From Peptococcaceae bacterium BICA1-7 (GTDB lineage Bacteria; Bacillota; Desulfotomaculia; Desulfotomaculales; Desulfocucumaceae), in the NCBI GenBank assembly GCA_000802095.1, contig JUEB01000026.1:248001-312000 (forward strand): a DNA stretch of 64,000 nucleotides, read 5' to 3'. Of this stretch, positions 13,901 through 30,009 are shown in pieces. Positions within the stretch are counted from its first letter, which is position 1. Every line of letters starts with the position of its first letter. A program made the translations under genes and the position numbers. The notes under the pieces were generated by a model. The model made no database searches. It saw only the letters and a program-made list of their open reading frames with translations, and had not been told where the DNA came from.

Positions 13901-13953
13901 ACTCCGATGAGCAGTACAATGCCGCCCTAAACGGTCTTTTTGATAACTGTTAA
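10912..13953 (+). CDS. hdrA: Long-form heterodisulfide reductase subunit A (HdrA1)
   Basis: A 1013-residue long HdrA. Residues about 1-460 form an N-terminal HdrA-like half with an FAD fold (VVGAGISGMQSA), NDCSMCILSPK, and ferredoxin motifs (CLGCGSCAEKCP, CGKCIDACP). The canonical HdrA follows: GVFVCHCGINIGS, SCSPRTHKPLF, a second FAD fold (VIGGGVSGMSAA), and two C-terminal clusters (CAACLTCVRLCP, CQGCGSCAGECP). HdrA is the flavin-bifurcating subunit. TTG start after GGAGG. It closes hdrCBA and converges on metF. It resembles HdrA3 closely and lacks the insertion of HdrA2. Confidence 0.93.
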   Translation: MNNNNQEKGKMVGAVMVVGAGISGMQSALDLAEMGYKVYIVEKTPAIGGRMPMLDKTFPTNDCSMCILSPKLVECGRHRNIEVITMSEVVEFKGDPGNYQVTVKKNPRYVDATKCLGCGSCAEKCPVKVEDDFNQKMGKRKSIYKLYPQAFPNAYVIDGSKCLKLKNPKACGKCIDACPVDAIDHDMKEEFVNINVGAVIVCSGYDLFDAELRGEYGYGVYPNVLTSLQFERMLSASGPFQGHVQRPSDGGEVKKVAFIQCVGSRDIAKNQGYCSSVCCMYATKEAVIAKEHVPGLETAIFCMDVRAFGKDFEKYYNRAKDNYNVRYIKSMISSVKENPANNNLRLQYRTPGGEILEEEFDIVVLSVGLKPTRELAELSRIMDIPLNHYNFCDLKPLSGVESMKPGIYLAGVSSGPKDIPETVMQASAAAGDCSSFLAPERNTLVSERVFPDQVDVLGQDPRIGVFVCHCGINIGSVVNVPSVVEFAKGLPNVVYAQEGLYVCSQDSQSTMRDLIKEHNLNRIVVASCSPRTHKPLFQETMRDAGLNKHLFEMANIRDQCSWVHQTDHDRATEKAKDLVKMSIYKASTLSPITSIVVEVNPACMVIGGGVSGMSAALNLAGQGYRVHLVESSDSLGGLARRITEGFRGENIQSYISGLIEKVNSQSLITVHRNCQVNEVSGYVGNFNTVLSNGTKIDHGATIIATGGDELIPTEYLYGENPRVLTQMEMDEAISSGDSRIAAAKNIVMIQCVGSRDDQRPYCSRICCTKTMKLALKVKDLNPSANVIVLYRDIRTYGFYEDLYREARSRGVFFIRYEKDQKPLVQSGQNTVNVTVTDHILNEKIELEADLLVLAAATVPAKTNEKLSQLFKVPLNPDSFFLEAHMKLRPVDFSSEGVFMCGLAHGPKGLDGSISQGKAAGGRAATVLGRKTLESKGITAVVDPDKCAACLTCVRLCPFNAPRIKPGTHKAEIEAVICQGCGSCAGECPNKAIRLQGYSDEQYNAALNGLFDNC

Positions 13954-14059: not shown

Positions 14060-14096
14060 AAAAAAGGAGTGGAAAGTTACTTCCACTCCCTTTTTT
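14060..14096. terminator. Terminator of the hdr-flx-met operon
   Basis: GGAGTGGAA and TTCCACTCC form a perfect 9-bp stem with A- and T-runs on both sides, about 20 bases after the metF stop codon. It works for the minus-strand operon and as a second stop for hdrCBA. Confidence 0.9.
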
Positions 14097-14116: not shown

Positions 14117-15058
14117 TTATTCCAGTTCCGAGGGATCCACCTGGGGCCTGGGATACAGTCCGGAGCGCTCCACTATTTCTGGAACAATCTCCTCCCAGGC
14201 GATGGCCATTACGTGCACACCGTGCACTCCCTTAATTTTTTCCCTGACATATTTGATTTGCTCAATGCAGAGGTCCACGCCCTCTTTCTTGGGATCTTCA
14301 GCAGACTTGAGGCGCTCCACTATTGAATCAGGAACGATCATGCCGGAAACGTTGCTCTGCATATATTTGGCGCCCCTCCAGCTCTTCAGCGGGGTTAGCC
14401 CGGCCAGTATGTGCACCCTCTGGTCTATTCCCCTTTCCCGTACCTTCTCCATAAAGCGCTCAAAGCGCTCCATGTCGAAAATGCACTGGGTCTGGATAAA
14501 CTGCGCGCCGGCCTCTACCTTTTTCTCCAGGCGGTCTATCCTGTATTCAAAGGGGTCGGCAAAGGGGTTGGCCACAGCTCCGATAAAGAATCTGGGCTCG
14601 CACTCCTTTATCTCCTCTCCGGAGAAGAACACCTTGTCGTCTCTCATCCTGCGCAGTGCCTGTATAAGCTGCATGGAGTCCACATCATAGACGTTCTTGG
14701 AGGTGGGGTGGTTGCCGAATTTCTGATGGTCGCCGGAAAGGCACAGCATGTTGCGCATGCCCAGGCAATAAGCTCCCAGTATATCAGCCTGCATGGCTAT
14801 GCGGTTCCTGTCCCGGCAGGTCATCTGAACGATGGGCTCAATGCCCGCCCCCAGCACATGCACTCCGGTGGCTATGCTGGAAATCCGCACGATGGCAGTC
14901 TGGCAGTCAGTTATATTGGTAGCGTCCACATAGTCCTTCATCATATGGGCATGGTGCTTGACACCTTCAACAGAGGCGTGCTTGGGCGGTCCTATTTCGG
15001 CTGTTACGGCAAATTGGCCGCTGTCCAGTATCTTATGCAGCTTGCTTAAATATTTCAC
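14117..15058 (-). CDS. metF: Methylenetetrahydrofolate reductase catalytic subunit
   Basis: A 313-residue TIM-barrel flavoprotein that interconverts methylene- and methyl-tetrahydrofolate, the last step of the methyl branch. Family segments include VTAEIGPPK near the N-terminus, NITDCQTA, NMLCLSGDHQ, GAVANPFADPFE and FIQTQCIFD. It overlaps metV by 4 bases and ends the ten-gene operon. In Moorella thermoacetica MetF works with MetV, HdrA, MvhD and RnfC2; here HdrA2, MvhD and MetV are directly upstream but no RnfC-like gene is seen. The electron donor or acceptor is inferred to run through the Hdr/Flx proteins. Confidence 0.95.
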   Translation of the reverse strand: MKYLSKLHKILDSGQFAVTAEIGPPKHASVEGVKHHAHMMKDYVDATNITDCQTAIVRISSIATGVHVLGAGIEPIVQMTCRDRNRIAMQADILGAYCLGMRNMLCLSGDHQKFGNHPTSKNVYDVDSMQLIQALRRMRDDKVFFSGEEIKECEPRFFIGAVANPFADPFEYRIDRLEKKVEAGAQFIQTQCIFDMERFERFMEKVRERGIDQRVHILAGLTPLKSWRGAKYMQSNVSGMIVPDSIVERLKSAEDPKKEGVDLCIEQIKYVREKIKGVHGVHVMAIAWEEIVPEIVERSGLYPRPQVDPSELE

Positions 15059-15726
15059 CCTATCATCACATCCTCCCTGACGGCTTTACGGGGCCCTCCG
15101 TCCCTGGACTTGGACCAGTCTTTGGGCGGCTGTATTTCCATCAGTTTATCCAGTTTTCCAAGAGCTTTCATCTTGTCGTAAATGAGCTGCCAGGCGCAGT
15201 CCACATCCTTGCTGATCTCGCATTTGCCGTACTGTGATCCGCCGCAGGGGCCGTTTAAAATACTCTTGGAGCAGCGGATTATAGGGCATATGCCTCCTGT
15301 CTTGTGGAGAATACACTCCCCGCAGAGGCCGCATTTTTCCACCCACTCGCCGTGTACGGTGGAGCCGCCGATGAACTTTGTGTCCAGGGCCGGTATCACC
15401 CATTTGTCGGTGTACCTTTCGGCCATATACTGCACCCCGACCCCGCAGGCCAGGGAAATAACAGCATCAACATCCTTAACCATTTCATCCATGGGCGGGA
15501 TGTATTCCGGATCACACTGTCTGGTGGCGGTATAGGTTATAGTCTGCAGCGGCTTTCCTTCCACTTCCCTCATCATACGGAGGGATGAGGCCATTATTTC
15601 GGTTTCCTTTTCGCCTCCGGCCAGGCATACGGTAACGCACCCGGCGCAGCCGACCAGCATTACCTTATTGCACTCGCTGATTAGAGCCGCTATATCCTTT
15701 AATGGTTTTTGCTGAGCTATAATCAT
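15055..15726 (-). CDS. metV: MetV, zinc/iron-sulfur partner of MetF
   Basis: A 223-residue protein of the MTHFR C-terminal (MetV) family. A Cys-rich N-terminal motif CAGCVTVC is followed by CGLCGECILHKTGGICP, then CSKSILNGPCGGS near residues 165-180. MetV recruits MetF to its electron-transfer partners and carries a [4Fe-4S] cluster in characterised complexes. Its start overlaps the mvhD stop by 4 bases and its stop overlaps metF by 4 bases, so the three are translationally coupled. Confidence 0.92.
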   Translation of the reverse strand: MIIAQQKPLKDIAALISECNKVMLVGCAGCVTVCLAGGEKETEIMASSLRMMREVEGKPLQTITYTATRQCDPEYIPPMDEMVKDVDAVISLACGVGVQYMAERYTDKWVIPALDTKFIGGSTVHGEWVEKCGLCGECILHKTGGICPIIRCSKSILNGPCGGSQYGKCEISKDVDCAWQLIYDKMKALGKLDKLMEIQPPKDWSKSRDGGPRKAVREDVMIG

Positions 15727-16181
15727 TTAGTTTCACCTTCTTTCGAGCATCCGCAGCAGCCGTTCCCTGAACGGGCTTTATTAAGTGGACTTGGCCCCAG
15801 TTCCTTTATCTTGGCGGCCATCTCATTGGCAATTTGGGCGAAACGCGCTCCCTGGGCAGAGGACAGGTTATACATCTCCAGCCTCTCTCCCCCGATGCCT
15901 ATTTCATCCAGAACCTTTTTCACTGCATTGACTCTTTTTCTGGCACGGATATTCCCCTTGAGGAAGTGGCAGTCACCCTCCATGCAGCCGGCCACGTAAA
16001 CACCGTCTGCGCCCTCCTCGAAGGCGTTTAACAGCACCCTGTGGTCAACGTTGCCTGTACATGTCATTTCAACTATTCTTATATTGGTTGAATACTGAAG
16101 TCTCATCGAACCTGCCAGGTCCGCAGCGGAATACGCTCAGTAGTGGCAGCAAAAGGCTATTATTTTAGGTTCAAACTCCAT
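15723..16181 (-). CDS. mvhD: MvhD-family electron-transfer subunit, predicted selenoprotein (MvhD1)
   Basis: From ATG 16181 the minus strand reads MEFEPKIIAFCCHY, an in-frame TGA at 16137-16139, then AYSAADLAGSMRLQYSTNIR and on without a break to the stop at 15723: 152 residues if TGA is selenocysteine. The TGA falls exactly on the third Cys of the family motif, which the paralog FlxD writes as LCNWCSY. A hairpin with a bulged U follows at 16108-16121. The family's second motif GCMEGDCH keeps its Cys. MvhD proteins hold a [2Fe-2S] cluster and feed electrons to HdrA. The start overlaps the hdrA2 stop by 11 bases. Gene callers would start at ATG 16106 and lose 25 residues. Confidence 0.85.
16108..16121 (-). 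promoter_or_regulatory. Possible SECIS hairpin of mvhD1
   Basis: Beginning 16 nt after the UGA, GACCU pairs with AGGUUC through a bulged U around loop GGC. The distance fits bacterial SECIS elements, but the stem is short and I could not fold it computationally. Confidence 0.5.
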
Positions 16182-19100
16182 CTGCTACACCTCCCTTAAA
16201 AAGGCCATGCACCATATTCATGTATATTTTATCATTGTAGCTCTGCAGTGTTATGGCCTTGTTCGGACACTCTCCGGCACAGGTTCCACAGCCCTGACAC
16301 ATCACCGCTTCAATTTCAGCCAGGTAGCTCTTTATTTTGGGCGCGTTATAGGGACACAGCCTCACACAGGTCAGGCAGGCGGCGCACTTATTCTTATCCA
16401 CCACAGCCACCACTCCGTGGGACTCCAGCTTGGACTTGGACAGCACCGTGGATGCCCTGCCGGCAGCCGCCCTGGCCTGGGCAATGTTCTCATCTATTGT
16501 TTTGGGGCCGTGGGCCAGCCCGGCCATATAGATACCCTCAGAGGCAAAGTCCACCGGCCGAAGCTTCATATGGGCCTCCAGGAAGAACCCTTCCTCGTTT
16601 ATGGAAATCTTGAAGATCTCATTCATCCTCTTGCTGTCCGGAGGCGACAGAATTGCCGCGGCCAGTCCCAGCAGGTCAGCCTCTATGGACAACGGCTGCC
16701 CCAGCACATGGTCTCTTACGGTAACCATTAGCTTTCCACCGGTCTCTTCCACAACCGGCTTCTGGTCAACGCTGTAGCGGATGAAAATAACCCCTTTGCG
16801 CCTGGCCTCGGTGTAAAGGTCCTCAAAGAAACCATAGGTCCTGATGTCCCTGTATAGTATGAAAACATTGGCGTCAGGATTTTTTTCCTTTACCTCCAGG
16901 GCCAGTTTCACCGATTTGGTGCAGCATACCCTGCTGCAGTAATTCCTGTCTGGCTCCCTGGATCCAACGCACTGAATCAATACTATATTTTTGGCGCTGC
17001 TAATCCTGGCGTCCCCTTTTTCAATGGCCTCAGCCATCTCCAGTTGGGTCATAACCCGGTCGCTTTGCCCGTACAGGTATTCAGTAGGTTTGTATTCCGC
17101 ACCGCCTATGGCCACTATGACTATGCCATGCTGCACCTCGCTGCCGTTGGTCAGGGTGGTTACAAAGTTGCCCAGGAAACCCTTACTTTCCTGAACCTCA
17201 GTGCCTGTATACAGTTCGATATTGCTGTTTTCCCTTACCTTTGCCTCCAGGCCCCTTAGATAGGCCTGCACATCCTCACCATTTAGTCCAATGCTGATGC
17301 GTGAAGCTAGCCCACCCAGGCTGTCTGATTTCTCCACCAGGTGCACCTTAAAGCCCTGTTCGGCCAGAGAGAGGGCGCTGTTCATTCCTGCCACGCCACC
17401 GCCTATAACCAGAGCGGACTTGGTAACACCCACCGGCTCCTGGTGAATCTCCTTCAAGAGGGCTGCCTTGGCTACCACCATCTTAACCAGGTCCTTGGCC
17501 TTTTCTGTGGCCCTGACCGGGTCGTTCTGGTGTACCCAGGAGCATTGGTCCCTTATATTGGCCATTTCAAACAGGTATCTGTTTAGTCCGGCCTCCATCA
17601 TGGTCTCCTGGAAAAGGGGTTTGTGAGTCCTTGGGCTGCAGGAGGCCACTACCACCCTGTTCAGCTTCTGCTCCTCGATAATCTGCCTTATGTTGGCCTG
17701 ACTGTCCTGGGAGCAAACATACAGGTATTCTCCGGCATAAACAACGTTAGGCAGCGTTTTGGCCATCTCCACCACTTCAGGAACCTTTACCGTGCTACCA
17801 ATATTGATCCCGCAGTGGCATACAAAAACGCCTATTCTTGGCTCTTCGTCACCTACATGCCTCTCCGGAGGGTATACTTTCTCCTTCACCAGAGTTCCCC
17901 TGGCATCGGCCAGAAGGCTCTGGGTCGCCCCGGCGGCCGCGCTGGCCTGCATTACTGTTTCTGGAATATCCTTGGGACCTGAGAATGCCCCGGCCACAAA
18001 CACACCCGGCTGGTTGGTTTCCACCCCGGTCAGCTCCAGGGGCTCCGAGAATCCGTATTTATTAAGGTCTACACCCAGTTTCTGGCCCAGATCCCTGACA
18101 CTCTGGGAAATCTGCATGCCCACCGAAAGAATCACCATGTCAAATTCCTCGGTTTGTATATTGCCATCCTCGTCAGAGTATCTGATGATCAGGTTTTTAC
18201 TGTCATCTTCTTTCTGTTCAATAGCATAGATTCTTGACCGTACGAATCTGACGTCTTTTTCTTCCCTGGCCCTGTCATAGTATTTTTCAAAGTTCTTGCC
18301 GTAGGTTCTCATATCCATAAAGAATATGGTGGTGTCCAGAGGCTTGGAGCTGTGCTCTTTGGCAATAACCGCCTCTTTAATGGCATACATGCAGCATACC
18401 GATGAGCAGTAGCCGTGCTCAACCCTGGTGTTTCTGGATCCCACGCACTGTATCCAGGCAATTTTCTCAGGCTCCTTGTGGTCGAAGGGCCTTACCATAT
18501 GTCCCTGGAACGGTCCGGAGGCGCTTAAGACTCTCTCAAACTCAAGGCTGGTCAGCACGTTGGGGTACTTGCCATAGCCGTAGTACTCCAGATCCTTGGA
18601 ATTGTATTTCTCAAAGCCCGGGGTCAGTATAATGGACCCCACATTTATTTCTACTTCCTCATCCTGCATATCGTGCTTTATGGCGTCCGCCAGGCAGGCC
18701 TTTTCGCACTCCAGGCACTCAGAGCAGACTCCGCAGTTAAGGCAGCGCTCGGCTTCCTTCATGGCCTGCTCCCTGGTCATACCATCGGAAACCTCCATGA
18801 ATGACCTGGCCCTTACGTCGGCATCGACATGGGAGGGGTGCTGAAGTTCCACCTTGGGGATATCGTCCTCTTCAAACCTGAAGGGGGCTATTTCCTCTTC
18901 AGAAACTCCAAATTTCCTGTCTGTCTTAAGGTCCCTGCCCAGCAGGTAAAGGTCAATGGACTCTGCAGCCGTCTTACCGGCAGCAACAGCCTCTATAACT
19001 GTTTTGGGACCGGTCATGGCATCACCGCCGGCGAATACTCCCGGCATAGACGTGGCCAGTGTATCGGGATCAGCCGTTATAACACTGCCGCGGCCGGTGG

Positions 19101-20616
19101 CCAGTCCGCTGCCCTCCAGTGAAGAGGCGTCGGGCTGCTGGCCAATGGCCATAATTACATTGTCAACATCTATAAAGAACTCGCTACCCTCTACCGCCAC
19201 AGGACGCCGCCTGCCGCTTGAATCGGGCTCTCCAAGCTGGTTCTGAAGACACTCTATGCGGGTAACCTTGCCATTCTCACCGAGAAAAGCCTTGGGGCTG
19301 GTCAGCATGGTAAATACCACGCCCTCTTCCCTAGCCTCAGTTATTTCCTCGGGAAGGGCGGTTATCTCGCCCTCGGTGCGGCGGTACACTATGTGCACCG
19401 ACTCTGCGCCAAGCCTTAAAGCAGTTCTGGCACAGTCCATGGCGGTATTGCCGCCACCGATGACAGCAACTTTTTTGCCCAGTTGGACCTTTTCACCCAG
19501 GGCGATATTCCGCAGGAAAGGCACACCATGCATTACGCCGTCCAGGTCTTCTCCCGGAACGTTCAGCCCGGTGCCCTTATGCGCCCCTATGGCCAGGAAC
19601 ACAGCAGAATAGCCGCTGTCCATCAATCCCTGAACCGTTATATCGCTGCCCAGCCGGGTGTTGTATTTAATCTCAACCCCCAGTTTGGTGATCAGGTCAA
19701 TCTCCAGGTCCACCCACTTTTTAGGCAGCCTGTACTCCGGTATACCCACCCGCATCATGCCGCCGCCCACCGGCAGGGCCTCAAATACGGTAACCCCGTA
19801 CCCTCTTTTGGCCAGTTGGTAGGCTGCCGAAAGTCCGGCGGGGCCGGCGCCTATAACAGCTACCCGCTTGCCGTTGGCTTCCGCTATTTCCGGAAGAGGA
19901 AGTTCATCCAGATTATTATAAGCGTAATCAGAGGCGACACGTTTTAGCTGCATTATGTTTACCGGATCATCCACCGATCCCCGGTGGCACTTGGTCTGAC
20001 AGGGATGGGTGCACACCCTTCCGCAGGCTGCCGGAAAGGGATTGTCACGATATACCATCTGCCAGGCCTCGGTAAACTTGCCCTTTTTAATGAGCTGTGT
20101 ATAGCCCTGGGCATTTACCCCCGCAGGGCACGCCGCCCTGCAGGGGGGAGTGCCCGCCTTTTCAATCACAAAAGCATTCGGAAAAGCCTGTGCATAAGGC
20201 TTGTAGGTGGCTTTGCGCTTGCCCAGCCCCTGGTTGAACTCACTTTTTACCTCTACCGGACAGGCATTGGCGCACTCACTACAGCCCTTGCACTTATCTA
20301 CATCTATATAGCGGGACCTTTGCTTAATTTTTACCTTAAAGTTACCCGGACCACCCTGCACATCCATTACATCCGAACAGGTGTAGGTTTGAACATTCAG
20401 GTGCCTGCCGCACTCCACCAGCTTCGGAGAAAGTATGCACATAGAACAGTCATTGGTGGGGAAAGTTTTGTCCAGCATGGGCATAGTCCCGCCTATGGCC
20501 GGAGTGTTTTCCACCAGGTATACGTAGTAGCCGGATTCGGCCAGATCCAGTGAGGCCTGGATGCCGGCTATGCCTGCACCCACCACCATTACTGCCCCGA
20601 CTTTATCAGAACTCAT
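16171..20616 (-). CDS. HdrA with an inserted GltD/NfnB-like NAD(P)H dehydrogenase module (HdrA2)
   Basis: A 1481-residue long HdrA. Outside residues about 155-640 it aligns block for block with HdrA1 and HdrA3: FAD fold, NDCSMCILSPK, CKGCSECANACP, GVFVCHCGINIGS, VIGGGVAGMNSA, and C-terminal CAACLTCVRLCP and CQGCGTCAGECP. The insertion is a full glutamate-synthase-small-subunit-like module: CRAACPAGVNAQ and CGRVCTHPCQTKC (Fe-S), VIGAGPAGLSAA (FAD), VIGGGNTAMDCARTA (NAD(P)H), and VFAGGDAMTGP. It replaces the linker before the second ferredoxin motif, itself changed to CLNCGVCSECLECEKAC. Removing it leaves about 1000 residues, the paralog length. It should let HdrA exchange electrons directly with a pyridine nucleotide. 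Cofactor preference is unknown. Confidence 0.92.
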   Translation of the reverse strand: MSSDKVGAVMVVGAGIAGIQASLDLAESGYYVYLVENTPAIGGTMPMLDKTFPTNDCSMCILSPKLVECGRHLNVQTYTCSDVMDVQGGPGNFKVKIKQRSRYIDVDKCKGCSECANACPVEVKSEFNQGLGKRKATYKPYAQAFPNAFVIEKAGTPPCRAACPAGVNAQGYTQLIKKGKFTEAWQMVYRDNPFPAACGRVCTHPCQTKCHRGSVDDPVNIMQLKRVASDYAYNNLDELPLPEIAEANGKRVAVIGAGPAGLSAAYQLAKRGYGVTVFEALPVGGGMMRVGIPEYRLPKKWVDLEIDLITKLGVEIKYNTRLGSDITVQGLMDSGYSAVFLAIGAHKGTGLNVPGEDLDGVMHGVPFLRNIALGEKVQLGKKVAVIGGGNTAMDCARTALRLGAESVHIVYRRTEGEITALPEEITEAREEGVVFTMLTSPKAFLGENGKVTRIECLQNQLGEPDSSGRRRPVAVEGSEFFIDVDNVIMAIGQQPDASSLEGSGLATGRGSVITADPDTLATSMPGVFAGGDAMTGPKTVIEAVAAGKTAAESIDLYLLGRDLKTDRKFGVSEEEIAPFRFEEDDIPKVELQHPSHVDADVRARSFMEVSDGMTREQAMKEAERCLNCGVCSECLECEKACLADAIKHDMQDEEVEINVGSIILTPGFEKYNSKDLEYYGYGKYPNVLTSLEFERVLSASGPFQGHMVRPFDHKEPEKIAWIQCVGSRNTRVEHGYCSSVCCMYAIKEAVIAKEHSSKPLDTTIFFMDMRTYGKNFEKYYDRAREEKDVRFVRSRIYAIEQKEDDSKNLIIRYSDEDGNIQTEEFDMVILSVGMQISQSVRDLGQKLGVDLNKYGFSEPLELTGVETNQPGVFVAGAFSGPKDIPETVMQASAAAGATQSLLADARGTLVKEKVYPPERHVGDEEPRIGVFVCHCGINIGSTVKVPEVVEMAKTLPNVVYAGEYLYVCSQDSQANIRQIIEEQKLNRVVVASCSPRTHKPLFQETMMEAGLNRYLFEMANIRDQCSWVHQNDPVRATEKAKDLVKMVVAKAALLKEIHQEPVGVTKSALVIGGGVAGMNSALSLAEQGFKVHLVEKSDSLGGLASRISIGLNGEDVQAYLRGLEAKVRENSNIELYTGTEVQESKGFLGNFVTTLTNGSEVQHGIVIVAIGGAEYKPTEYLYGQSDRVMTQLEMAEAIEKGDARISSAKNIVLIQCVGSREPDRNYCSRVCCTKSVKLALEVKEKNPDANVFILYRDIRTYGFFEDLYTEARRKGVIFIRYSVDQKPVVEETGGKLMVTVRDHVLGQPLSIEADLLGLAAAILSPPDSKRMNEIFKISINEEGFFLEAHMKLRPVDFASEGIYMAGLAHGPKTIDENIAQARAAAGRASTVLSKSKLESHGVVAVVDKNKCAACLTCVRLCPYNAPKIKSYLAEIEAVMCQGCGTCAGECPNKAITLQSYNDKIYMNMVHGLFKGGVADGV

Positions 20617-20679
20617 AAAACATCACTTCCACTTCTTTAATGGAACTAAGAGGCTTTCTACCGGTTCTTATTGTACGCC

Positions 20680-21903
20680 TTATTCTTTTTCAGGCATTAT
20701 GAGCGCCCTCTCCATCAGAGTGCACATGTGCATGTTTTTTGATTTTCCCTTGGTGTCCGGATACCATTTGTTCAGGTCGTTAAACTGGTCAATACAGTTG
20801 TGACAGGGCACCAGTACAATCTGAGCACCGGTGGCCATGACCTGATCCACCTTGCGCTTCCCTTTAGCCTTACGCTTTTCATTATATTCCGGCATGGCCA
20901 TTCCGCCGCCGCCGGCTCCGCAGCAGTAGTTCATCTTTCCGTTGGGGTTCATGTCCACGAAATTCTTTACAAAGCTCTTCAGCAGCTCCCTGGGCTCTTC
21001 CCATACACCTTCCTTACGGGCGGTGTTACAGGGGTCGTGGTAGGTGACTACCTCGGTGATGGCATCCGGGTCCAGCTTTAAAGAGCCGTCCTTTACCAGT
21101 TCGTTGAGCAAAGACAGTATATGCCGGATGGGGAATTCCTTGCCCTTCCAGAATGTTCTGTAGCCCCAGCGCATCGACCGGAAGGCGTGCCCGCACTCGG
21201 TTACAATAAATTGCTCGCAACCCAAACGGTCAAACTCTTCCCAGATGGGCATGGATATTTCCACAAAATCATCATTCTGGCCGGTAAACAGAGCGATGTT
21301 GGTGGCGTCCCAGCGTTTTGTGCTGATAGTGTAGTCAATGCCTGCAGCATAGAAAATCTTCAGCGTGGTCTGCAGCTCATTGGCATAGATTTTAATGTCC
21401 CGGGCGTTGAAGCCGTAGAAGTACTTGGCGCCTTTCTTATCCAGGGGAATGGTGAAGTCCGGATCTCCCAGTTCTTCCCTCATCTCATCCTGAATCCACT
21501 CGATGGTCTCATCGTAGTCTTCCTGGCTTACATTCATCTGGTTGCCGGACTCAATATGCTCCCGGGCAATAGTCTGCAGATAGCCGGGTATCTTGTCCTT
21601 TTCAAAGGTTCCGCGCAGAGTCCTTACCACCACGGCCACATTTATTCCCATGGGGCACTCAACCGTGCAGCGCTCGCACATGGTGCAGTACCAGAGATAT
21701 GGGTCCTGTAAGGCTTCTTCCATGCCCAGGTTTAATTTGCGCAGAAATTTGCGGGGGTCCTGGCTCTCATGCACGTCTGAGTACGGGCAGCCGGCGGTGC
21801 ACATGCCGCAGGCCAGACACTGTGAAAAGTCATAGTTTTTCAGCAGTCCGGCCACTCTCTCCCTGAAATTGGGATTCAGTTGTGTTGACTGAATAGTTTC
21901 CAT
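20680..21903 (-). CDS. HdrC-HdrB fusion (HdrD/DsrK-like iron-sulfur protein) with one degenerate CCG domain
   Basis: A 407-residue protein. The N-terminal HdrC part carries CLACGMCTAGCP and CTMCERCTVECP. The C-terminal part holds one complete CCG domain (YHDPCN, YCCGAGGGG, PCHNC). The first CCG domain is degenerate: residues about 160-260 have no CC pair and keep only an isolated TECGHAF. It may therefore bind one non-cubane cluster, like some DsrK/HmeD-type proteins, not two as HdrB does. It lies between flxA and hdrA2 and probably supplies the disulfide- or thiol-facing site of the complex. GGGGAGGAG precedes the ATG. Confidence 0.85.
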   Translation of the reverse strand: METIQSTQLNPNFRERVAGLLKNYDFSQCLACGMCTAGCPYSDVHESQDPRKFLRKLNLGMEEALQDPYLWYCTMCERCTVECPMGINVAVVVRTLRGTFEKDKIPGYLQTIAREHIESGNQMNVSQEDYDETIEWIQDEMREELGDPDFTIPLDKKGAKYFYGFNARDIKIYANELQTTLKIFYAAGIDYTISTKRWDATNIALFTGQNDDFVEISMPIWEEFDRLGCEQFIVTECGHAFRSMRWGYRTFWKGKEFPIRHILSLLNELVKDGSLKLDPDAITEVVTYHDPCNTARKEGVWEEPRELLKSFVKNFVDMNPNGKMNYCCGAGGGGMAMPEYNEKRKAKGKRKVDQVMATGAQIVLVPCHNCIDQFNDLNKWYPDTKGKSKNMHMCTLMERALIMPEKE

Positions 21904-21960
21904 TTAATATGCTCCTCCCCTCAACGGAGTCCCTGCAATTGGGTGTTTATTAATTTAATT

Positions 21961-22012
21961 TGTGCCGGGGAAACGCCCGCCTATTTTGGCGGACAAGCCC
22001 CCGGCAGGCACA
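21961..22012 (-). other. Intercistronic stem-loop between flxA and hdrD-like gene
   Basis: Outer strands TGTGCC/GGCACA and GGGG/CCCC enclose an inner CCGCC/GGCGG hairpin. It starts directly after the flxA stop codon. No T-run follows on the minus strand, so a processing or stability element fits better than a full terminator. Confidence 0.6.
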
Positions 22013-22855
22013 TTAATACTCGTTAGGCAGTTGGTTCAGTTCCGCCCTTGTGAACACGGGGCCGTCTTTGCAGACATATTTGTTCCCCACATTGCAGCGC
22101 CCGCACATGCCGATGCCGCACTTCATTCTGTTCTCCAGAGACATGATCACCTGTTCCGGCTTGAAGCCACAGGCTTCCAGCTCAGGCATGGTGAACTTGA
22201 TCATCACCGGAGGTCCGCAAATTATGGCCACTGAATTGTTGGAACTGGGAGCCACTTCCTTGGTTACCGTCGGAATGAAGCCCACCTTGCCGGTCCAGCC
22301 GTCCGCAGGGCGGTCGATGGTGCATATCAGATCAATATCCGACCTCTTGCTCCATTCATCCCTCTCATCCTTGTAAAGTAGCAGCCCGGGGTTTCTGGCG
22401 CCGTATATTACGGTTATTTTTCCGTAATCACCCCTGTGTTCCGGCTTGAGCATATAGTTTACCAGAGAGCGCAAGGTGGTAAAGGCAAAACCTCCGCCTA
22501 TGATAACTATATCCTTTCCCTTCATCTGCTCCACCGGGTAGTAATTGCCCAGAGGGCCGCGAACTCCAACCATGGTGCCCTCCTCCATGAGGTGCAGGGC
22601 AGTGGAGACCACACCAACCTTGGCCACGGAAAACTTTAAGAATCCGGGCTCGGTGGGGGAAGAGGCTATTCCGAAGGGGGCCTCGCCCTTACCAAAAACG
22701 CATATTTCGGCGAATTGTCCAGGCATATAGGGGAAGCTCTTTTCATCTTCTTCGCTCATAAACTGGAAGGTGAAGGTGTGGATGAGCTTATCCTCGGTTT
22801 CGGTAAAGTTTTTTACCAGCTTCATTGGGAGCGGCAGATATGGATTTCTTTGCAT
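22013..22855 (-). CDS. flxA: FlxA-like FAD/NAD(P)-binding oxidoreductase with [2Fe-2S] centre
   Basis: A 280-residue ferredoxin-NADP reductase-type protein of the sulfhydrogenase gamma/FlxA group. An FAD barrel (MPGQFAEICVFG, FGIASSPTEPG) precedes the nucleotide domain (IVIIGGGFAFTTLRSL, CGPPVMIKF). The C-terminal CGIGMCGRCNVGNKYVC binds a [2Fe-2S] cluster. FlxA is the NADH-oxidising entry of the FlxABCD-HdrABC complex known in sulfate reducers and ethanol metabolisers. Its start overlaps flxB by one base. It gives the operon a pyridine nucleotide site separate from that in HdrA2. Confidence 0.88.
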   Translation of the reverse strand: MQRNPYLPLPMKLVKNFTETEDKLIHTFTFQFMSEEDEKSFPYMPGQFAEICVFGKGEAPFGIASSPTEPGFLKFSVAKVGVVSTALHLMEEGTMVGVRGPLGNYYPVEQMKGKDIVIIGGGFAFTTLRSLVNYMLKPEHRGDYGKITVIYGARNPGLLLYKDERDEWSKRSDIDLICTIDRPADGWTGKVGFIPTVTKEVAPSSNNSVAIICGPPVMIKFTMPELEACGFKPEQVIMSLENRMKCGIGMCGRCNVGNKYVCKDGPVFTRAELNQLPNEY

Positions 22856-23871
22856 TATTTATCCGACCTCGCTTCCGACCCCTGAATATCCGCCAGAATT
22901 TCCCGGATGTCCAGATTTACGGGGCAGTTTTTAATACACCTGCCGCAGCCCACACAAGCTGTGGCGTTGAAATTGTCAACAAAGTACTTGAACTTATGCA
23001 TAACTCTCTGGCGCATGCGCTCTTTTCCGGTAGTCCTTGGGTTGTGCCCGGATCCGTGCAGGGTAAACAGGGGGAACATGCAGGAGTCCCAGTTCCTTAC
23101 CCGGCAGCCGTTGCAGTCCTTGGCCTCATCCACTATATCGAAACAGTGGCAGGTGGGGCAGGAATAGGTGCAGGACCCGCAGCCCAGACACTTCTCATGG
23201 AAGCTCTCCCATATGGTGTCGTAAAAGTTGGCGTCCAGTTTGCCCTTCAGGCCATCGGTATTAACCTTGCAGACCACCACTGCTGCATCCCTGACTTTGG
23301 CGGCAGCGGCCTTCTGCCCTTCACCGGCGGCGGAGAGTCCCATTTTGGACATCAGTTCCCTGCCCTTTTCGCTGACTGCTTCCACCAGGTATTCATCACC
23401 GGTGTCGGTGAGCATAACATCCAGCCCTTTGCTGTCGAAGGGGCCGCCTCCCATGGAGGTGCAGAAGCAGGTGGGGGCGGGTTCGCTGCAGGCCATTCCC
23501 ACCAGCAAAGTGTTAGCCCTTCTGTTCATATAGTACGGGTCTTCGTATTTATCATTTTTAAATACACTGTCCAGCAGAAGAAGGCTTTGGGCATCGCAGG
23601 GGCGCAGTCCGAAAACCACCTTCTTTTTGTTGTCGATACACTCCTCCATTTGGGCTCCACTATAGCTGAAAAGCTTTTCAGACTGAGGGAAAAGGATACC
23701 CTTGGGAGGGATTTTGCTGTTCAAAAATCCGAAATATGCCTCACTGCCTTTGCCAATTTGCTTAAACAGGGAATACGTTCCCTCCTTGACGGGGGCGTAC
23801 ACCTCATACTCGGCAATAAGATTGTCCAGCAGACCGGGCAGAGCGTTTTTTGCTATTATCATCCTTTTCAC
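22855..23871 (-). CDS. flxB: FlxB-like iron-sulfur subunit (sulfhydrogenase beta type)
   Basis: A 338-residue protein. The N-terminal two thirds hold family segments FGLRPCDAQSLLLLD and ACSEPAPTCFCTSMGG. The C-terminus has two ferredoxin motifs, CLGCGSCTYSCPTCHC and CVGCGRCIKNCP. It is related to the beta subunit of sulfhydrogenases and to FlxB, which relay electrons from FlxA. It sits 1-2 bases from both neighbours (flxC and flxA) and is translationally coupled to them. Confidence 0.87.
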   Translation of the reverse strand: MKRMIIAKNALPGLLDNLIAEYEVYAPVKEGTYSLFKQIGKGSEAYFGFLNSKIPPKGILFPQSEKLFSYSGAQMEECIDNKKKVVFGLRPCDAQSLLLLDSVFKNDKYEDPYYMNRRANTLLVGMACSEPAPTCFCTSMGGGPFDSKGLDVMLTDTGDEYLVEAVSEKGRELMSKMGLSAAGEGQKAAAAKVRDAAVVVCKVNTDGLKGKLDANFYDTIWESFHEKCLGCGSCTYSCPTCHCFDIVDEAKDCNGCRVRNWDSCMFPLFTLHGSGHNPRTTGKERMRQRVMHKFKYFVDNFNATACVGCGRCIKNCPVNLDIREILADIQGSEARSDK

Positions 23872-23872
23872 C

Positions 23873-24826
23873 TCACTCCTTCACCAGGAAAGGTTGTGGG
23901 TCGTCAGCCTTGAACTCGGCCAGCGCCGGTTTTTCATCCGGGTTGACGCCGGTTTCATAGCCGAACAACTCCTTGACTTCCTTGACCATTTTCCGGGTCA
24001 TGCCACGCAGGTTGATACCCATGGGGCAGGCCCTGTCACAGGCCCCGCAGTCGGCGCAGCGCCCGGCGCTGTGGAACACCCTTCCGGCCTGGAACATGAT
24101 GTTATCATCAGTGCCGGTGGATTTATTTAACCACGCAGGGGTGGAACAGTCTACAAAGCACTCGGCGCAGTAGCACATGGGGCATGCATTGCGGCAGGCA
24201 TAGCACCTTATGCACTTGGAAAACTCGGCGGCCAGCGCTGCCCTGCGCTCTGCCGGTGAAAGCGCCTCGAAGGCGGCCACATCGGCAAAGTTGTCCTCAG
24301 GCTTGTCGGGCACCGGGTCACCAATCATCATATCGTATATTACCGGGTTCCCGTAGCGGCATACCTTACAGGTATCGTGCGTCAGGTCACCCGTGCCAAC
24401 CTCAATGGTTATCCCATTGGCCTTTAATACCAGGCTGTCGCCCTTTTCTTCAACAGCAACGAGGTCTTTACCCTCCAGGGCGGCATCCACCTTGGCCCGG
24501 TCAATCATTCCCTGGCATGGCACACCGATTATAAACAGGTTATCACGGTCTATCTGGTTTTCATTGATCAGGGCCACTATTGAGCGCACGTCGCAGCCCT
24601 TGGCCACTACGGCCACTCTGTCCTGGCGCTTTCTCAGATAGTTGGCCAGGTTGTTTTCACAAGAGCAGTCCCAGGTCAGTTTGGCAGCGTCCTCGGGCTT
24701 ACGGATAAAGCACGGAGTGCTGCGAAGAGGCAGGCTGCCCTTGGAGAATCCCACCACCAGGTCAACCTTTTTTTCTTCCAGTAATTTCTTGGCAGCGTCC
24801 TGAATCGCTGAAGCTAGCTTTTGCAT
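23873..24826 (-). CDS. flxC: FlxC-like iron-sulfur subunit
   Basis: A 317-residue protein with N-terminal and central segments of the FlxC/F420-dehydrogenase beta-like type (GCDVRSIVALI, VGTGDLTHDTCKVCRYGNP). Ferredoxin motifs follow: CIRCYACRNACPMCYCAECF and CADCGACDRACPMGI. It relays electrons between FlxB and FlxD. I prefer ATG 24826; GTG 24838 is possible. The start overlaps the flxD stop by 13 bases. The end reads PQPFLVKE. Confidence 0.85.
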   Translation of the reverse strand: MQKLASAIQDAAKKLLEEKKVDLVVGFSKGSLPLRSTPCFIRKPEDAAKLTWDCSCENNLANYLRKRQDRVAVVAKGCDVRSIVALINENQIDRDNLFIIGVPCQGMIDRAKVDAALEGKDLVAVEEKGDSLVLKANGITIEVGTGDLTHDTCKVCRYGNPVIYDMMIGDPVPDKPEDNFADVAAFEALSPAERRAALAAEFSKCIRCYACRNACPMCYCAECFVDCSTPAWLNKSTGTDDNIMFQAGRVFHSAGRCADCGACDRACPMGINLRGMTRKMVKEVKELFGYETGVNPDEKPALAEFKADDPQPFLVKE

Positions 24827-25260
24827 CCGCAACAACACCCCGCTTCCTGGCTGGGTACTATCCCTTTATTGGGGCCCAGTTTTTTTACTTTTTCGGTAAC
24901 CTCGCTGACCAGTTCACCGAACCGGCCACCTTCGGCAGCAGACACCCAGGCAAAGTTAACTCTGTCTTCGTCCACCCCGATGTATTCCATCATGCTCTTT
25001 AACAGGGCAAATTTCCTTCTGGCTACCAGGTTGCCACTAACATAGTGGCAGTCTCCGGGGTGTCACCCGGAGGTGAGCACGCCGTCAGCCCCGTTTTTAA
25101 TGGCCGACATGATAAACAGAGGGTTTATCCGGCCGGAGCAAGGTATGCGGATTACACGAATATTGGGGGGGTACTGTATCCGGCTAACACCGGCCAGATC
25201 GGCCCCCGCATAGCTACACCAGTTACATAGAAAAGCGACTATTTTTGGTTCCCATTCCAT
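24814..25260 (-). CDS. flxD: FlxD/MvhD-family subunit, predicted selenoprotein
   Basis: From ATG 25260 the protein reads [19 protein letters not shown] and reaches GADGVLTSG, where TGA occurs at 25063-25065. Reading continues in frame as [17 protein letters not shown] to a TAG at 24814, with a Cys-rich end [10 protein letters not shown]: 148 residues. The TGA replaces the Cys of the conserved SGCHPGDCH motif, the position MvhD1 keeps as GCMEGDCH. A perfect 6-bp hairpin follows at SECIS distance. MvhD/VhuD-type selenoproteins are known in archaea and bacteria. Conventional calling stops at residue 65 and misses the rest. The 22-base gap to hdrA3 and the overlap with flxC place it firmly in the operon. 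Confidence 0.92.
25033..25049 (-). promoter_or_regulatory. SECIS-like hairpin of flxD
   Basis: Thirteen bases after the UGA, GCCACU and AGUGGC form a perfect 6-bp stem with loop AUGUU, which contains the GU typical of bacterial SECIS apical loops. Flanking CCGG/CUGG could extend the stem. Confidence 0.75.
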
Positions 25261-25282
25261 TTACCTATCCCTCCCCCTGTCG

Positions 25283-28200
25283 CTAAAGCGCGTTTATCAT
25301 GGCCATTATCTGTTCGTTGGTGCATCCCTTGACGTTAAGGGCCCCGCAGCGGCAGGAAGAAGCACAGGCTCCGCAGCCCTTACAAAGTGCCTCGTTGACC
25401 ACAGCCACTTTTTCTGTGGGGTCAACAGAAACCGCCTTGGCAGGACATACCGACTCACAGACACCACACCCGGCGCACTTCTTCTTGTTGACAATAGCGC
25501 ATTTTCCTTCAACGTCAATTGCTTCCTTGGCCAGCACTGTGCAGGCCCTGGCCACTGCAGCCTTGGCCTGGGAAATATTTTCTTCCATGTTTTTGGGGCC
25601 ATGGGCCAGACCGCACATAAATACGCCGTCAGTACCGAAATCAACCGGACGGAGCTTTAAGTGAGCCTCCAGGAAGAAGCCCTCCTGGTTCAAAGGAACC
25701 TTGAAGAACTGTGACAGCTTGCTGTTTTCCGACGGCACAATAGCGGCGGCCAGGCCAACCACATCGGCGTCGATGGATACAGGTGCGCCCAGAACATGGT
25801 CGGTAACGGTTACCTTCACTTTATCGCCTGAAGCTTCCACCACCGGCTTGCTGTCAGCCGAATAGCGGATAAAGATGACTCCCTTGCGCCTTGCTTCGGT
25901 ATACATATCCTCATAGAATCCGTAAGTGCGGATGTCTCTGTAGAGAATGAACACATTGGCGTCGGGATTGGTTTCTTTAAGTTTTAGCGCCTGCTTGATT
26001 GACTTGGTACAGCATATACGGCTGCAGTACGGACGTTCCGGCTCCCTTGAGCCGACGCACTGGATGAAAACGATGTTCTTGGCGGCAGCCAGCTTTCCGT
26101 CTGCCAGATCCGATTCCAGCTCCAGAAGTGTCTTCACCTTCTGGTTCTGTCCGTAGAGGTATTCTGTAGGTTTGTATTCATCACCACCGGTGGCGATAAT
26201 AGATACACCGTGCTGAATCTCTTCCCCATTGGACAGCTTGGTGACAAAATTGCCGACAAACCCGTGCACTTCAGCTATTTCAACACCTGTATAAACTTTA
26301 ATCAGCTGGTTATTGTTTATTTTTGCAGCCAGATCAGCCAGATACGCCTGCACATCCTCGCCCTTCATTCCGTAGCGGATGCGGTTGGCAATGCCTCCCA
26401 GGGCACCGGACTTCTCGACCAGACTTACCTTGTAGCCCTGGGCTGCAGCGTTCAGTGCGGCATTCATTCCAGCCACGCCTCCGCCGATAACCAGCACATC
26501 GTGGTTCATGCCCAGGCTCACGCCCTTTAGCGGCTCCAGCAAGGCTGACTTGTACACGGCCATTTTGACCAGGTCCTTGGCCTTTTCTGTGGCCTTTTCA
26601 GGTTCTTTCTGGTGTACCCAGGAGCACTGGTCCCTTATATTGGCCATCTCAAAGAGATTGGGGTTTAAGCCCGCTTCTTTGAGGGTCTCCTGGAACATAG
26701 GCTCGTGTGTCCTGGGGCTGCATGAGGCCACCACAACCCTGTTGAGATTGTATTTTTCTATGGCCTCCTTAATCTGAACGCCTGTATCCTGTGAGCAGGC
26801 ATACATCTTTTCATCTGCAAAGACCACTCCCGGAAGTGTCCTGGCATAATCAACCACCGACGGCACATTCACCACGCTGCCTATATTTATTCCACAGTGG
26901 CAGATGAATACACCGGTGCGGATAATCTCCCCGGCAACATCTTTTTCTGCGGGGTATTCCCTTTTCTTAACCAGGGTGCCCCTGGCTTCTGCCAGTATTA
27001 CAGAGGAGTCGGCGGCTGCCGCGCTGGCCTGCATGACAGTTTCAGGAATGTCCCTGGGGCCGCTGAAGGCGCCTGCCACGTATACCCCGGGCCTGCTGGT
27101 GCCAACACCGGTAAGACTGGGAGGCTCGGCAAAGTTAAACTTGTTCAGCTCAACACCAAGCTTTCCGGCCAGATCAATCATATCCCTGGAGGGCTCCAGT
27201 CCTATGGAAAGCACAACCAGATCGAATTCCTCATTGGTTATGGTCCCGTCTTCATTGGAATAGCGAATGACCAGGTTTCCACTGCCGTCGGCAGTCTCGG
27301 TCACCTCGTATACCCTGGACCGGACAAACTTTACTCCCTGCTCCAGACGGGCCTTGTCATAGTATTTTTCAAACTCCTTGCCGTAGGTCCGCATGTCCAT
27401 GAAGAATATGGTGGTGTCAAGGGCATAGGGTGCGTGCTCCTTGGCGATAACAGCTTCTTTAATGGCATACATGCAGCAGACTGACGAGCAGTAGCCGTGG
27501 TCCAGCTTGCAGTTTCTTGATCCTACGCACTGTATCCAGGCAACCTTTTTCGGCTCCTTGTGGTCCGAGGGACGCACCAGGTGTCCGCCCAGGGGGCCCG
27601 AGGCCGAAAGAATTCTTTCAAATTCAAGGCTGGTAAGCACATTGGGGAACTTACCATAGCCGTAGTAGGACAGCTGCTCCGGCTGGAACGCGTCAAATCC
27701 GGGCACGAGAATAACCGATCCCACTTCAATCTCAATGGTTTTATCTTCCATTGAATGGTCGATGGCATCGGCCTGGCAGGCCTCAAGGCATTTTCCGCAA
27801 GCCTTGGGCTTTTTAATTTTTAAGCACTTTCCCTTGTCGATGGCATAGGCATTGGGATAAGCCTGTGCGTAAAGCTTGTAAATAGCTTTTCTCTTGCCCA
27901 GACCCTGGTTGAATTCATCGTCCACCTTAACCGGACATTCCTCTGCGCAAGAACCGCAGCCTGTGCACTTATCCGGGTCAACAAAACGAGCTTTTTGCTC
28001 TATTGTGGCCTTGAATTTTCCCGGTTCACCCTGCAGATCCACCAATTGTGAAGAAGTCATTATTTCGATGTTCAGGTGGCGTCCGCATTCCACAAGCTTT
28101 GGTGACAGGATGCACATAGAGCAGTCGTTGGTGGGGAATGTCTTGTCCAGCATGGGCATAGTGCCGCCAATGGCAGGTTGCTTTTCCACCAAATAGACGT

Positions 28201-28297
28201 AGTAGCCTGATTCGGCAAGGTCCAGGGATGCCTGGATACCAGCGATACCGGCGCCCAGTACCATTACGGCCCCGACTTTATCGGGTTTTGTTGTCAT
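25283..28297 (-). CDS. Long-form HdrA (HdrA3), first gene of the hdr-flx-met operon
   Basis: A 1004-residue long HdrA built like HdrA1: N-terminal FAD fold (VLGAGIAGIQAS), NDCSMCILSPK, CTGCGSCAEECP and CGKCLEACQADA, then canonical HdrA with GVFICHCGINIGS, SCSPRTHEPMF, a second FAD fold (VIGGGVAGMNAA), and C-terminal CAGCGVCESVCP and CKGCGACASSC. In CGKCLEACQADA a Gln replaces the usual Pro. It is followed by flxD, so it is the likely bifurcating subunit of a FlxABCD-HdrA unit. AGGAGG lies about 16 bases before the ATG, rather far. The leader is long and its promoter is at 28820-28848. Confidence 0.92.
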   Translation of the reverse strand: MTTKPDKVGAVMVLGAGIAGIQASLDLAESGYYVYLVEKQPAIGGTMPMLDKTFPTNDCSMCILSPKLVECGRHLNIEIMTSSQLVDLQGEPGKFKATIEQKARFVDPDKCTGCGSCAEECPVKVDDEFNQGLGKRKAIYKLYAQAYPNAYAIDKGKCLKIKKPKACGKCLEACQADAIDHSMEDKTIEIEVGSVILVPGFDAFQPEQLSYYGYGKFPNVLTSLEFERILSASGPLGGHLVRPSDHKEPKKVAWIQCVGSRNCKLDHGYCSSVCCMYAIKEAVIAKEHAPYALDTTIFFMDMRTYGKEFEKYYDKARLEQGVKFVRSRVYEVTETADGSGNLVIRYSNEDGTITNEEFDLVVLSIGLEPSRDMIDLAGKLGVELNKFNFAEPPSLTGVGTSRPGVYVAGAFSGPRDIPETVMQASAAAADSSVILAEARGTLVKKREYPAEKDVAGEIIRTGVFICHCGINIGSVVNVPSVVDYARTLPGVVFADEKMYACSQDTGVQIKEAIEKYNLNRVVVASCSPRTHEPMFQETLKEAGLNPNLFEMANIRDQCSWVHQKEPEKATEKAKDLVKMAVYKSALLEPLKGVSLGMNHDVLVIGGGVAGMNAALNAAAQGYKVSLVEKSGALGGIANRIRYGMKGEDVQAYLADLAAKINNNQLIKVYTGVEIAEVHGFVGNFVTKLSNGEEIQHGVSIIATGGDEYKPTEYLYGQNQKVKTLLELESDLADGKLAAAKNIVFIQCVGSREPERPYCSRICCTKSIKQALKLKETNPDANVFILYRDIRTYGFYEDMYTEARRKGVIFIRYSADSKPVVEASGDKVKVTVTDHVLGAPVSIDADVVGLAAAIVPSENSKLSQFFKVPLNQEGFFLEAHLKLRPVDFGTDGVFMCGLAHGPKNMEENISQAKAAVARACTVLAKEAIDVEGKCAIVNKKKCAGCGVCESVCPAKAVSVDPTEKVAVVNEALCKGCGACASSCRCGALNVKGCTNEQIMAMINAL

Positions 28298-28819: not shown

Positions 28820-28848
28820 AGTATAATATTTCTCACTTTTGCTGTCAA
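28820..28848 (-). promoter_or_regulatory. Strong sigma-A promoter of the hdr-flx-met operon
   Basis: On the minus strand a perfect TTGACA is followed by 17 bases and TATACT. It separates this operon from the upstream acs operon. Confidence 0.8.
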
Positions 28849-29851: not shown

Positions 29852-29899
29852 ATCATTAGCCTCCTTCTTATTCCTCTTGGGCATTAATCCTATAATTTA

Positions 29900-29984
29900 G
29901 AATTCAGGAGTCAGTTTTAACATATCCAGAGTTATTTGGTTTTCCTAAGCCAATCTGGATTTGTGTATTCTGACTCCTGCATTC
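29900..29984. repeat. Short inverted repeat between acsD and acsE
   Basis: GAATTCAGGAGTCAG and CTGACTCCTGCATTC are inverted copies with one mismatch, about 55 bases apart. An inner pair, ATCCAGA and TCTGGAT, adds to the hairpin. It resembles a small non-autonomous repeat or an intercistronic RNA hairpin. Confidence 0.55.
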
Positions 29985-30009
29985 CGGCAGTTACTCATTC
30001 AATTAAGGA

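Follow-up and report, generated by a model that had tools for sequence, protein, structure and literature searches.

A candidate Flx-extended, Hdr-type methylene-tetrahydrofolate reductase operon in Peptococcaceae bacterium BICA1-7 and its relatives

Methylene-tetrahydrofolate (methylene-THF) reductases of the Hdr-type, or type IV, class (PMC8760232, PMC5861303) are known from Moorella thermoacetica and Sporomusa ovata, in which metV-metF is accompanied by mvhD and hdrA, with an HdrC/HdrB-type gene nearby. The Moorella cluster is given as metVF-hdrCBA-mvhD, and RnfC2 is assigned to the type III reductase of Acetobacterium woodii (PMC8578096, PMC8760232). The second acceptor of the Moorella enzyme is described as unknown (PMC8760232), and the Sporomusa enzyme is tied to the membrane (PMC9430772). 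Here we describe a ten-gene operon of Peptococcaceae bacterium BICA1-7, at positions 14,117 to 28,297 of a 64,000-nucleotide window (the whole stretch analysed; assembly GCA_000802095.1, contig JUEB01000026.1, 248,001 to 312,000), in which a FlxABCD-HdrA1-HdrCB unit stands upstream of a type IV core; this upstream unit is the new part. We propose, at a probability of about one half, that the operon encodes a Flx-extended Hdr-type methylene-THF reductase, reversible and coupled to NAD(P)H and ferredoxin, in a bacterium that carries dsr and Wood-Ljungdahl genes.

Compared with the type IV loci of Moorella and Sporomusa, the operon differs in its fused one-CCG HdrC-B, in the added FlxABCD and second HdrA, and in a TGA codon within mvhD; unlike the type III clusters, which contain rnfC2, its ten genes include no RnfC. 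FlxABCD-HdrABC of Desulfovibrio vulgaris and hdr locus I of Desulfotomaculum reducens (Dred_0137-48) share FlxA-D together with HdrA; here, hdrA2-mvhD-metV-metF follow on the same strand and the operon holds no separate two-CCG HdrB. HdrL of Desulfobacterium autotrophicum, an HdrA/glutamate synthase fusion, shares a GltD-like domain within HdrA, an adjoining mvhD and selenocysteine-containing MvhD copies; HdrL1 is followed by mvhD and dsr genes, whereas HdrA2 here is linked to metVF and itself lacks a TGA. The hdrABC-mvhD-metVF cluster of marine Chloroflexi (DscP3) has a fused hdrC-hdrB with mvhD and metVF, and the portion of text on that cluster names no Flx alongside, in contrast to the arrangement here.

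The operon runs on the minus strand from 28297 to 14117 in the order hdrA1, flxD, flxC, flxB, flxA, hdrCB, hdrA2, mvhD, metV and metF, as defined by open reading frames (ORFs) and family searches. This co-directional order and these families had been proposed by an earlier, sequence-only reading and are all present; its gene calls are corrected for flxD (25260-24814) and mvhD (16181-15723, the start not being 16106), each of which contains one in-frame TGA. Intergenic distances (negative values denote overlap; the flxD end is that obtained by TGA read-through) are 22 bases for hdrA1-flxD, -25 for flxD-flxC, 1 for flxC-flxB, -1 for flxB-flxA, 109 for flxA-hdrCB, 63 for hdrCB-hdrA2, -11 for hdrA2-mvhD, -4 for mvhD-metV and -4 for metV-metF. 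Seven of the nine junctions thus overlap or leave at most 25 bases, in line with the claim that most of them do, and the two looser ones lie on either side of hdrCB. A sigma-70-like promoter candidate, TTGACA-17-TATACT (28820..28848, minus strand), matches 11 of 12 consensus bases about 520 bases 5' of hdrA1; as a consensus match only, from a scan that gave 14 sites against a shuffle mean of 12.9, it is no more than suggestive. Downstream, a stem-loop with a T run (14066..14089, minus strand) lies 3' of metF and may act as a shared, bidirectional terminator. The earlier reading had placed a promoter before and a terminator after the genes; both elements have a counterpart, with the promoter weakened as stated. 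The ten genes are likely to form one transcript.

The core of the operon is formed by its last four genes. metF (14117..15058, 313 aa) encodes the methylene-THF reductase and is the sole match to PF02219 in its own genome at E <= 0.001; metV (15055..15726, 223 aa, PF12225) adjoins it, and mvhD and hdrA2 directly precede metV. A sequence search of MetV against solved structures returned no match. HdrA2 (16171..20616, 1481 aa) is of the HdrL/Moorella type. It matches HdrA1 (25283..28297, 1004 aa, with two TrxR/FAD domains and with ferredoxin clusters located both in its first half and C-terminally) at 76% over the first 150 residues and at 62% over the last 850. Between these matching parts lies a GltD/NfnB-like insert of about 470 residues without counterpart in HdrA1. 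The corresponding domain (approximately residues 154-623; 18748..20157) carries FAD and NAD(P)H sites and provides a second pyridine-nucleotide site. In the 1487-aa HdrA of Moorella thermoacetica, the first TrxR domain is interrupted by GltD with FAD and NAD(P)H sites (PMC9430772). Because HdrA2 shares this GltD-inserted layout and adjoins mvhD-metV-metF, we assign HdrA2-MvhD-MetV-MetF to the known type IV reductases. The sequence-only reading had associated Moorella MetFV with HdrA, MvhD and RnfC2; hdrA and mvhD do belong to the Moorella cluster, but RnfC2 is part of the A. woodii type III enzyme.

Upstream of this core, FlxA, FlxB, FlxC and FlxD occur all together with HdrA. flxC (23873..24838, 321 aa) encodes an iron-sulfur (Fe-S) protein resembling FrhB/FdhB, flxB (22855..23871, 338 aa) a sulfhydrogenase-beta-like Fe-S protein, both from ORF and family match, and flxA (22013..22855, 280 aa) a FAD/NAD reductase of the sulfhydrogenase-gamma type that holds the first pyridine-nucleotide site. 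The Flx names follow from family matches and gene order, no Flx-specific model having been found. FlxB is the only close copy in its genome, the next best reaching 35%. The operon thus has two HdrA, two MvhD-type proteins and two pyridine-nucleotide sites, one in FlxA and one in the HdrA2 GltD insert, with neither a hydrogenase nor an RnfC gene among its ten genes, as anticipated from the sequence; RnfC models run on these genes matched only the ferredoxin stretch of FlxB, far below cut-offs.

Between the two modules, hdrCB (20680..21903, 407 aa) joins an HdrC-type dicluster to an HdrB-type fold with a single CCG site and resembles EtfD, DsrK and TmcB. The eight dicluster cysteines and the one CCG site are Cys in 32/32 homologous copies (among them the overlapping pairs L058/L084 and L042/L043; L denotes fetched loci), and the degenerate first CCG repeat retains one Cys in 31/32. 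HdrCB is therefore not a textbook HdrB, and a classical two-CCG HdrB was ruled out as its identity; the earlier name, an HdrC-HdrB fusion, is retained with the proviso of a single CCG site. In family searches it came closest to HmcF, TmcB and DsrK, scoring well under the curated cut-off each time. A monomer model (mean predicted local distance difference test score 86.7) aligned to EtfD with Z 25.8 and root-mean-square deviation 2.6 over 368 aligned residues, and to HdrB chains with Z 19.6-20.7; DsrK is not among the structure matches listed, which excludes nothing. Within the ten-gene cluster hdrB and hdrC occur only as this one-CCG fusion; a two-CCG HdrB3 and an HdrC3 are encoded convergently at 9419-10888.

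The arrangement is conserved. We surveyed 60 genomes, own genome included, of the same order, which we take to be Desulfotomaculales (MetF at E <= 1e-30, FlxB at E <= 1e-50; G denotes surveyed genomes, f1 to f18 their families). MetF was found in 48, FlxB in 50 and both in 40. Of the 40 with both, 20 have flxB on the metF strand, 2.7-7.9 kb ahead of metF, which makes the linkage more than a chance neighbourhood. The 20 linked genomes span seven families (f1, f8, f9, f10, f12, f16 and f18); in the other 20, flxB was not seen upstream of metF, in at least one of them (G010) because contigs end. The Flx-MetVF arrangement is thus conserved across several families and not peculiar to BICA1-7, and its gene order is kept where MetF identity falls to 60-63%. 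A contig search for relatives covered the best 80 of 579 confirmed stretches. Named bearers are Sporotomaculum syntrophicum (L080), Desulfoscipio geothermicus metagenome-assembled genomes (MAGs; L081, L082; L081 and G032 are one genome), the cultivated Desulfofundulus thermosubterraneus (L083) and Desulfovirgula thermocuniculi (L086), and further bearers are the MAGs L084 and L085; in NCBI taxonomy, three of those with names are assigned to Desulfallaceae and Peptococcaceae. In L085, a MAG labelled Armatimonadetes, metF is 77% identical and the cluster resembles those of this order, which points to mis-binning or horizontal transfer.

To relate flxB to the core (MetV, MvhD and HdrA at >=35% identity), we counted 117 metF loci after dropping three duplicates, set aside 30 with less than 7.5 kb upstream, and searched up to 11 kb upstream in the remaining 87, which are related, so that the counts do not represent independent events. 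flxB is present upstream in 25/87 (24 distinct clusters, L042 and L043 being from one genome), all with the core: 25/47 loci with the core against 0/40 without it, at the thresholds used. Four of the 40 coreless loci carry more divergent Hdr genes with Flx downstream of metF (L130, L138 and L151; flxD only in L139). Other arrangements of Flx near metVF-hdr occur in MAGs labelled Latescibacteria (L101) and Bacillota (L130, L138, L151).

A tree of concatenated FlxA+B+C (37 tips, midpoint root) placed 24 of the 27 tips treated as metF-linked in one clade (bootstrap 90), whose sister group is the eight stand-alone tips from f3 and f11. The three remaining linked tips, two from f12 and one from f9, lie outside this clade. 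L160, whose contig ends before metF, was labelled linked, and L166 and L167, on short contigs, stand-alone. From this topology, the linkage either is ancestral and was lost in places or has more than one origin. The L167 contig (G010) breaks off where a further HdrA begins, and this copy may be linked.

Variants of the operon drop single parts. The L071 operon has one HdrA with Flx, HdrCB, MvhD and MetVF. L080 and L047/L081 (the latter two from one genome) also have one HdrA, and a 203-214-aa HdrC-ferredoxin protein replaces HdrCB; in L080 this protein has no CCG by Pfam. In L080 and L081, hdrCB and a GltD-bearing HdrA lie about 0.4 kb after metF. L051 and L060 lack HdrCB in the operon, and their two f18 genomes hold no copy above 45% identity. 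The f8 bearers L055 and L083 have an additional HdrB-type gene before flxD, accompanied in L055 by HdrA and HdrC. L085 was dropped as a case without HdrB, an HdrB-like gene lying before its flxD at the edge of the fetched stretch. Eight Flx-linked loci with HdrCB, and also L085, carry the GltD insert in HdrA2; L042 and L060 carry it in the other HdrA, and L049, L055 and L070, for example, have it in neither. Coupling of the two modules is favoured by those operons in which only one HdrA, or no HdrCB, stands between Flx and MvhD-MetVF.

Both MvhD-type genes contain an in-frame TGA, which the earlier reading had overlooked. In flxD (24814..25260, 148 aa, FlpD/MvhD family), it is codon 66 (25063..25065) within a GUHPGDC motif; in mvhD (15723..16181, 152 aa), it is codon 15 (16137..16139) within CxxU. 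We compared 124 FlxD/MvhD-family copies from the fetched loci, after removing four duplicate loci and labelling each copy by the better-scoring of two queries. Of their in-frame stops, 58 are TGA codons at position 15 or 66; the other nine (6 TGA, 3 TAG) lie at 138-150, near protein ends. FlxD position 66 is TGA in 41/52 and Cys in 11/52; MvhD position 15, in 70 aligned copies, is TGA in 16, Cys in 33 and another residue in 21. The genome encodes a tRNA-Sec with TCA anticodon and SelB above cut-off. The TGA codons of flxD and mvhD therefore almost certainly specify selenocysteine at a conserved Cys position. Folding after each TGA for a selenocysteine insertion sequence gave z -2.30 for flxD, where a hairpin is plausible, and z -0.31 for mvhD, where it is unsupported; an Rfam scan of the window at gathering thresholds detected only a SAM riboswitch and tRNA. 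Since selenocysteine MvhD is already known from methanogens and D. autotrophicum (PMC13188914, PMC2702500), we regard it as a detail rather than a novelty. An MvhD copy 5' of metV-metF at L107:7652-8083 has its TGA at position 66, not 15, so the selenocysteine site shifts between copies. Besides the FlpD cysteines, both proteins have Cys-rich tails, CCCGC in FlxD (24823-24837, minus strand) and CCGC in MvhD (15747-15758, minus strand).

Gene content and order, the TGA codons at Cys positions, the conservation and the modular variants are direct observations; from these we infer a physical coupling through a shared HdrA, an electron path, bifurcation and direction. MetF would provide the folate site, reducing methylene-THF or oxidizing methyl-THF, and MetV with selenocysteine MvhD would relay electrons to or from HdrA, whose paired flavins would form the branch point. 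FlxABCD, with its selenocysteine FlxD, would deliver NADH electrons to the same Hdr hub, the GltD domain of HdrA2 would be a second NAD(P)H entry, and HdrCB would relay electrons through Fe-S clusters and offer a disulfide-type site. Run reductively, the system would bifurcate NAD(P)H electrons to methylene-THF and ferredoxin; run oxidatively, it would confurcate those of methyl-THF and ferredoxin to NAD(P)+. The standard energy of 2 NADH with methylene-THF and ferredoxin is near -5 kJ/mol (PMC5861303), so the reaction lies close to reversible. Sporomusa HdrA, without GltD, oxidizes NADH at 0.5 U/mg against 190 U/mg for what we take as the GltD-bearing Moorella HdrA (PMC9430772); from this contrast, GltD may be the core NADH site and Flx a second one. 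Pull-downs in Sporomusa tie MetF to HdrA, HdrB and MvhD (PMC9430772). Besides these, we count in favour of the proposal the Moorella-like core, the linkage in 20/40 genomes, the restriction of upstream flxB to loci with the core, the operons with fewer parts, the Flx genes close to metVF-hdr in L101, L130, L138 and L151, and the lack of a second close FlxB in the genome.

Several observations weigh against this proposal. PMC8578096 and PMC9430772 report that Sporomusa MetVF was not co-purified with Hdr and used reduced ferredoxin in vitro, and that the Moorella complex did not reduce ferredoxin; T. phaeum reportedly showed no bifurcation with NADH and ferredoxin. Within the operon, the two loosest junctions flank hdrCB, the border of the Flx and MetVF modules. 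Among the loci counted, 22/47 with the MetV-MvhD-HdrA core have no flxB upstream, and in the organism's own family (f1, eight genomes) the linkage is seen in four. Among the f1 exceptions, G006 has no metF match, and in G004 and G005 the contig with metF breaks off inside metV and FlxB gave no match. In the nearest relative, G002, the operon extends up to a contig end inside hdrA2; its lack of metF may thus be an assembly cut, and loss of metF with Flx kept was rejected for it. MetV was not found in G002 or G006 in a search without positive control. In f11, each of the five genomes contains FlxB and gave no MetF match; HdrA1-FlxDCBA is present in both that were inspected, with HdrCB in one (L161), and HdrA1-FlxDCBA units also stand away from metF in f3 (L162, L163, L164). 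As related Flx units stand alone where metF is absent or elsewhere, a single complex is at most a candidate. Further HdrA/HdrL genes elsewhere in G030 (L071), G032 (L047) and G041 (L042) also weaken the single-HdrA operons as proof of one shared HdrA. In L161, L162 and L163, the HdrA1-FlxDCBA copies are tandem, about 8 kb apart with equal FlxB scores; a similar locus of D. reducens has two identical FlxA genes and is proposed as partner of another hdr locus in DsrC reduction (PMC4759654).

The nearest rival, a possibility we take seriously while holding it short of probable, is that one transcript encodes two complexes: a Moorella-type HdrA2-MvhD-MetVF reductase, perhaps with HdrCB or HdrC3-HdrB3 and using its own GltD NAD(P)H site, and a Flx-HdrA1-HdrCB NADH dehydrogenase serving ferredoxin and DsrC, the two being co-regulated and coupled only through NADH and ferredoxin pools. 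The stand-alone f11 and f3 units speak for it, with HdrCB alongside in L161, L162 and L163; they resemble Dred_0137-48, proposed to help feed DsrC (PMC4759654), and the BICA1-7 genome itself has dsrA and two DsrC. G041 adds a Moorella-type HdrL-MvhD-MetV-MetF beside its Flx-type copy. Set against two complexes are the operons with one HdrA or without HdrCB, and the finding that, among the 87 loci and at the thresholds used, no flxB precedes metF unless the MvhD-HdrA core is there too. In G041 (L042, L043), these metV-metF copies are in tandem, and hdrA2 of the Flx-type copy is a decayed remnant with stops.

At the other extreme, the most explicit form of coupling would be one soluble machine, in which an HdrA1-HdrA2 heterodimeric flavin hub binds FlxABC via selenocysteine FlxD and MetVF via selenocysteine MvhD on opposite sides while GltD adds NADPH; we consider this full architecture unlikely. 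Improbable in our view is a downhill path, in which electrons from methyl-THF (about -200 mV) pass via MvhD, HdrA and HdrCB to the DsrC trisulfide and feed sulfite reduction directly, with Flx adding NADH electrons to the same sink and no need for methylene-THF bifurcation. HdrCB, which is DsrK/TmcB/HmcF-like by sequence and EtfD-like by fold and keeps its single CCG in 32/32, would suit such a path, as would the dsrA and dsrC of the genome; the title of a paper cited in PMC10553843 also names direct contact of Flx-Hdr with DsrC in Desulfovibrio. However, HdrCB is missing in f18 (L051 and L060, no genome copy above 45% identity) and replaced by a CCG-free substitute in L080, and acetogens such as Sporomusa likewise have a metVF-mvhD-hdrA core (L102; PMC9430772). 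That the gene order is merely inherited, meaning nothing beyond co-expression of Wood-Ljungdahl and redox genes, seems to us hardly credible: much of the linkage may trace to one event, given the single clade of 24/27 linked Flx tips (bootstrap 90), but the linked Flx of f12 and f9 fall outside it, the order persists down to 60-63% MetF identity, and L101, a MAG of another phylum, has similar linkage in a different order.

The Wood-Ljungdahl genes acsE, acsD, cooC, acsC, acsB and acsA (29057..37941, minus strand; named from ORF reading, no family search) lie 5' of the operon and outside it proper, and their homologues have the same order and strand in relatives. Convergent with metF, hdrC3-hdrB3-hdrA3 (9419..13953, plus strand) encodes an HdrB3 with two CCG sites, and HdrC3-HdrB3-HdrA3 is a possible alternative partner; HdrA ends on the opposite strand right after metF are also seen in L040, L050 and L057, and the full set in L085. 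The genome has dsrA above cut-off and two DsrC copies. Farther away, yqeB, yqeC, a MocA-type gene (just under cut-off) and a molybdopterin-domain gene (42911-46134, minus strand) are likely to serve maturation of a selenium-dependent molybdenum hydroxylase, a second selenium trait near the operon. A SAM riboswitch lies directly 5' of a homocysteine biosynthesis gene (HcyBio, PF01837; 49224-50630, plus strand). The region 51841-63988 (minus strand), with a cNMP/CBS/DUF294 protein, a sodium:solute symporter, an exonuclease, three AMP-binding enzyme genes and a sigma-54 activator, is perhaps an acid uptake and activation island.

No report of Flx beside metVF was found in the literature searched, an absence that is weak because most subscription journals lay outside the search. 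FlxABCD, MetV and methylene-THF are all mentioned in PMC9430772, PMC8578096 and PMC13391211, the FlxABCD mentions seen there being in reference lists; for syntrophic sulfate reducers, Flx-Hdr and metF-HdrABC appear in separate figures (PMC10553843), and HdrABC-Flox has been suggested to feed the Wood-Ljungdahl pathway in Dehalobacteriia (PMC10327494). In the D. gibsoniae genome paper, acs genes are drawn with metF and genes labelled 'hyd', 'Fe-S' and 'up' (PMC4148979), a drawing that may depict the Flx-MetVF operon, unnamed there. In Wood-Ljungdahl energetics it is still an open question how the methylene-THF/methyl-THF step is coupled to electron carriers. Many genomes, some from cultivated species, place the type IV core alongside an entire NADH module, which offers a concrete candidate partner, and two probable selenoproteins would be placed at this step. 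Variants that drop single parts form a natural series for testing Flx coupling. If the HdrA1-HdrA2 machine exists as drawn, one enzyme would keep NADH, NADPH, ferredoxin and methyl-THF in balance whichever way the Wood-Ljungdahl pathway runs.

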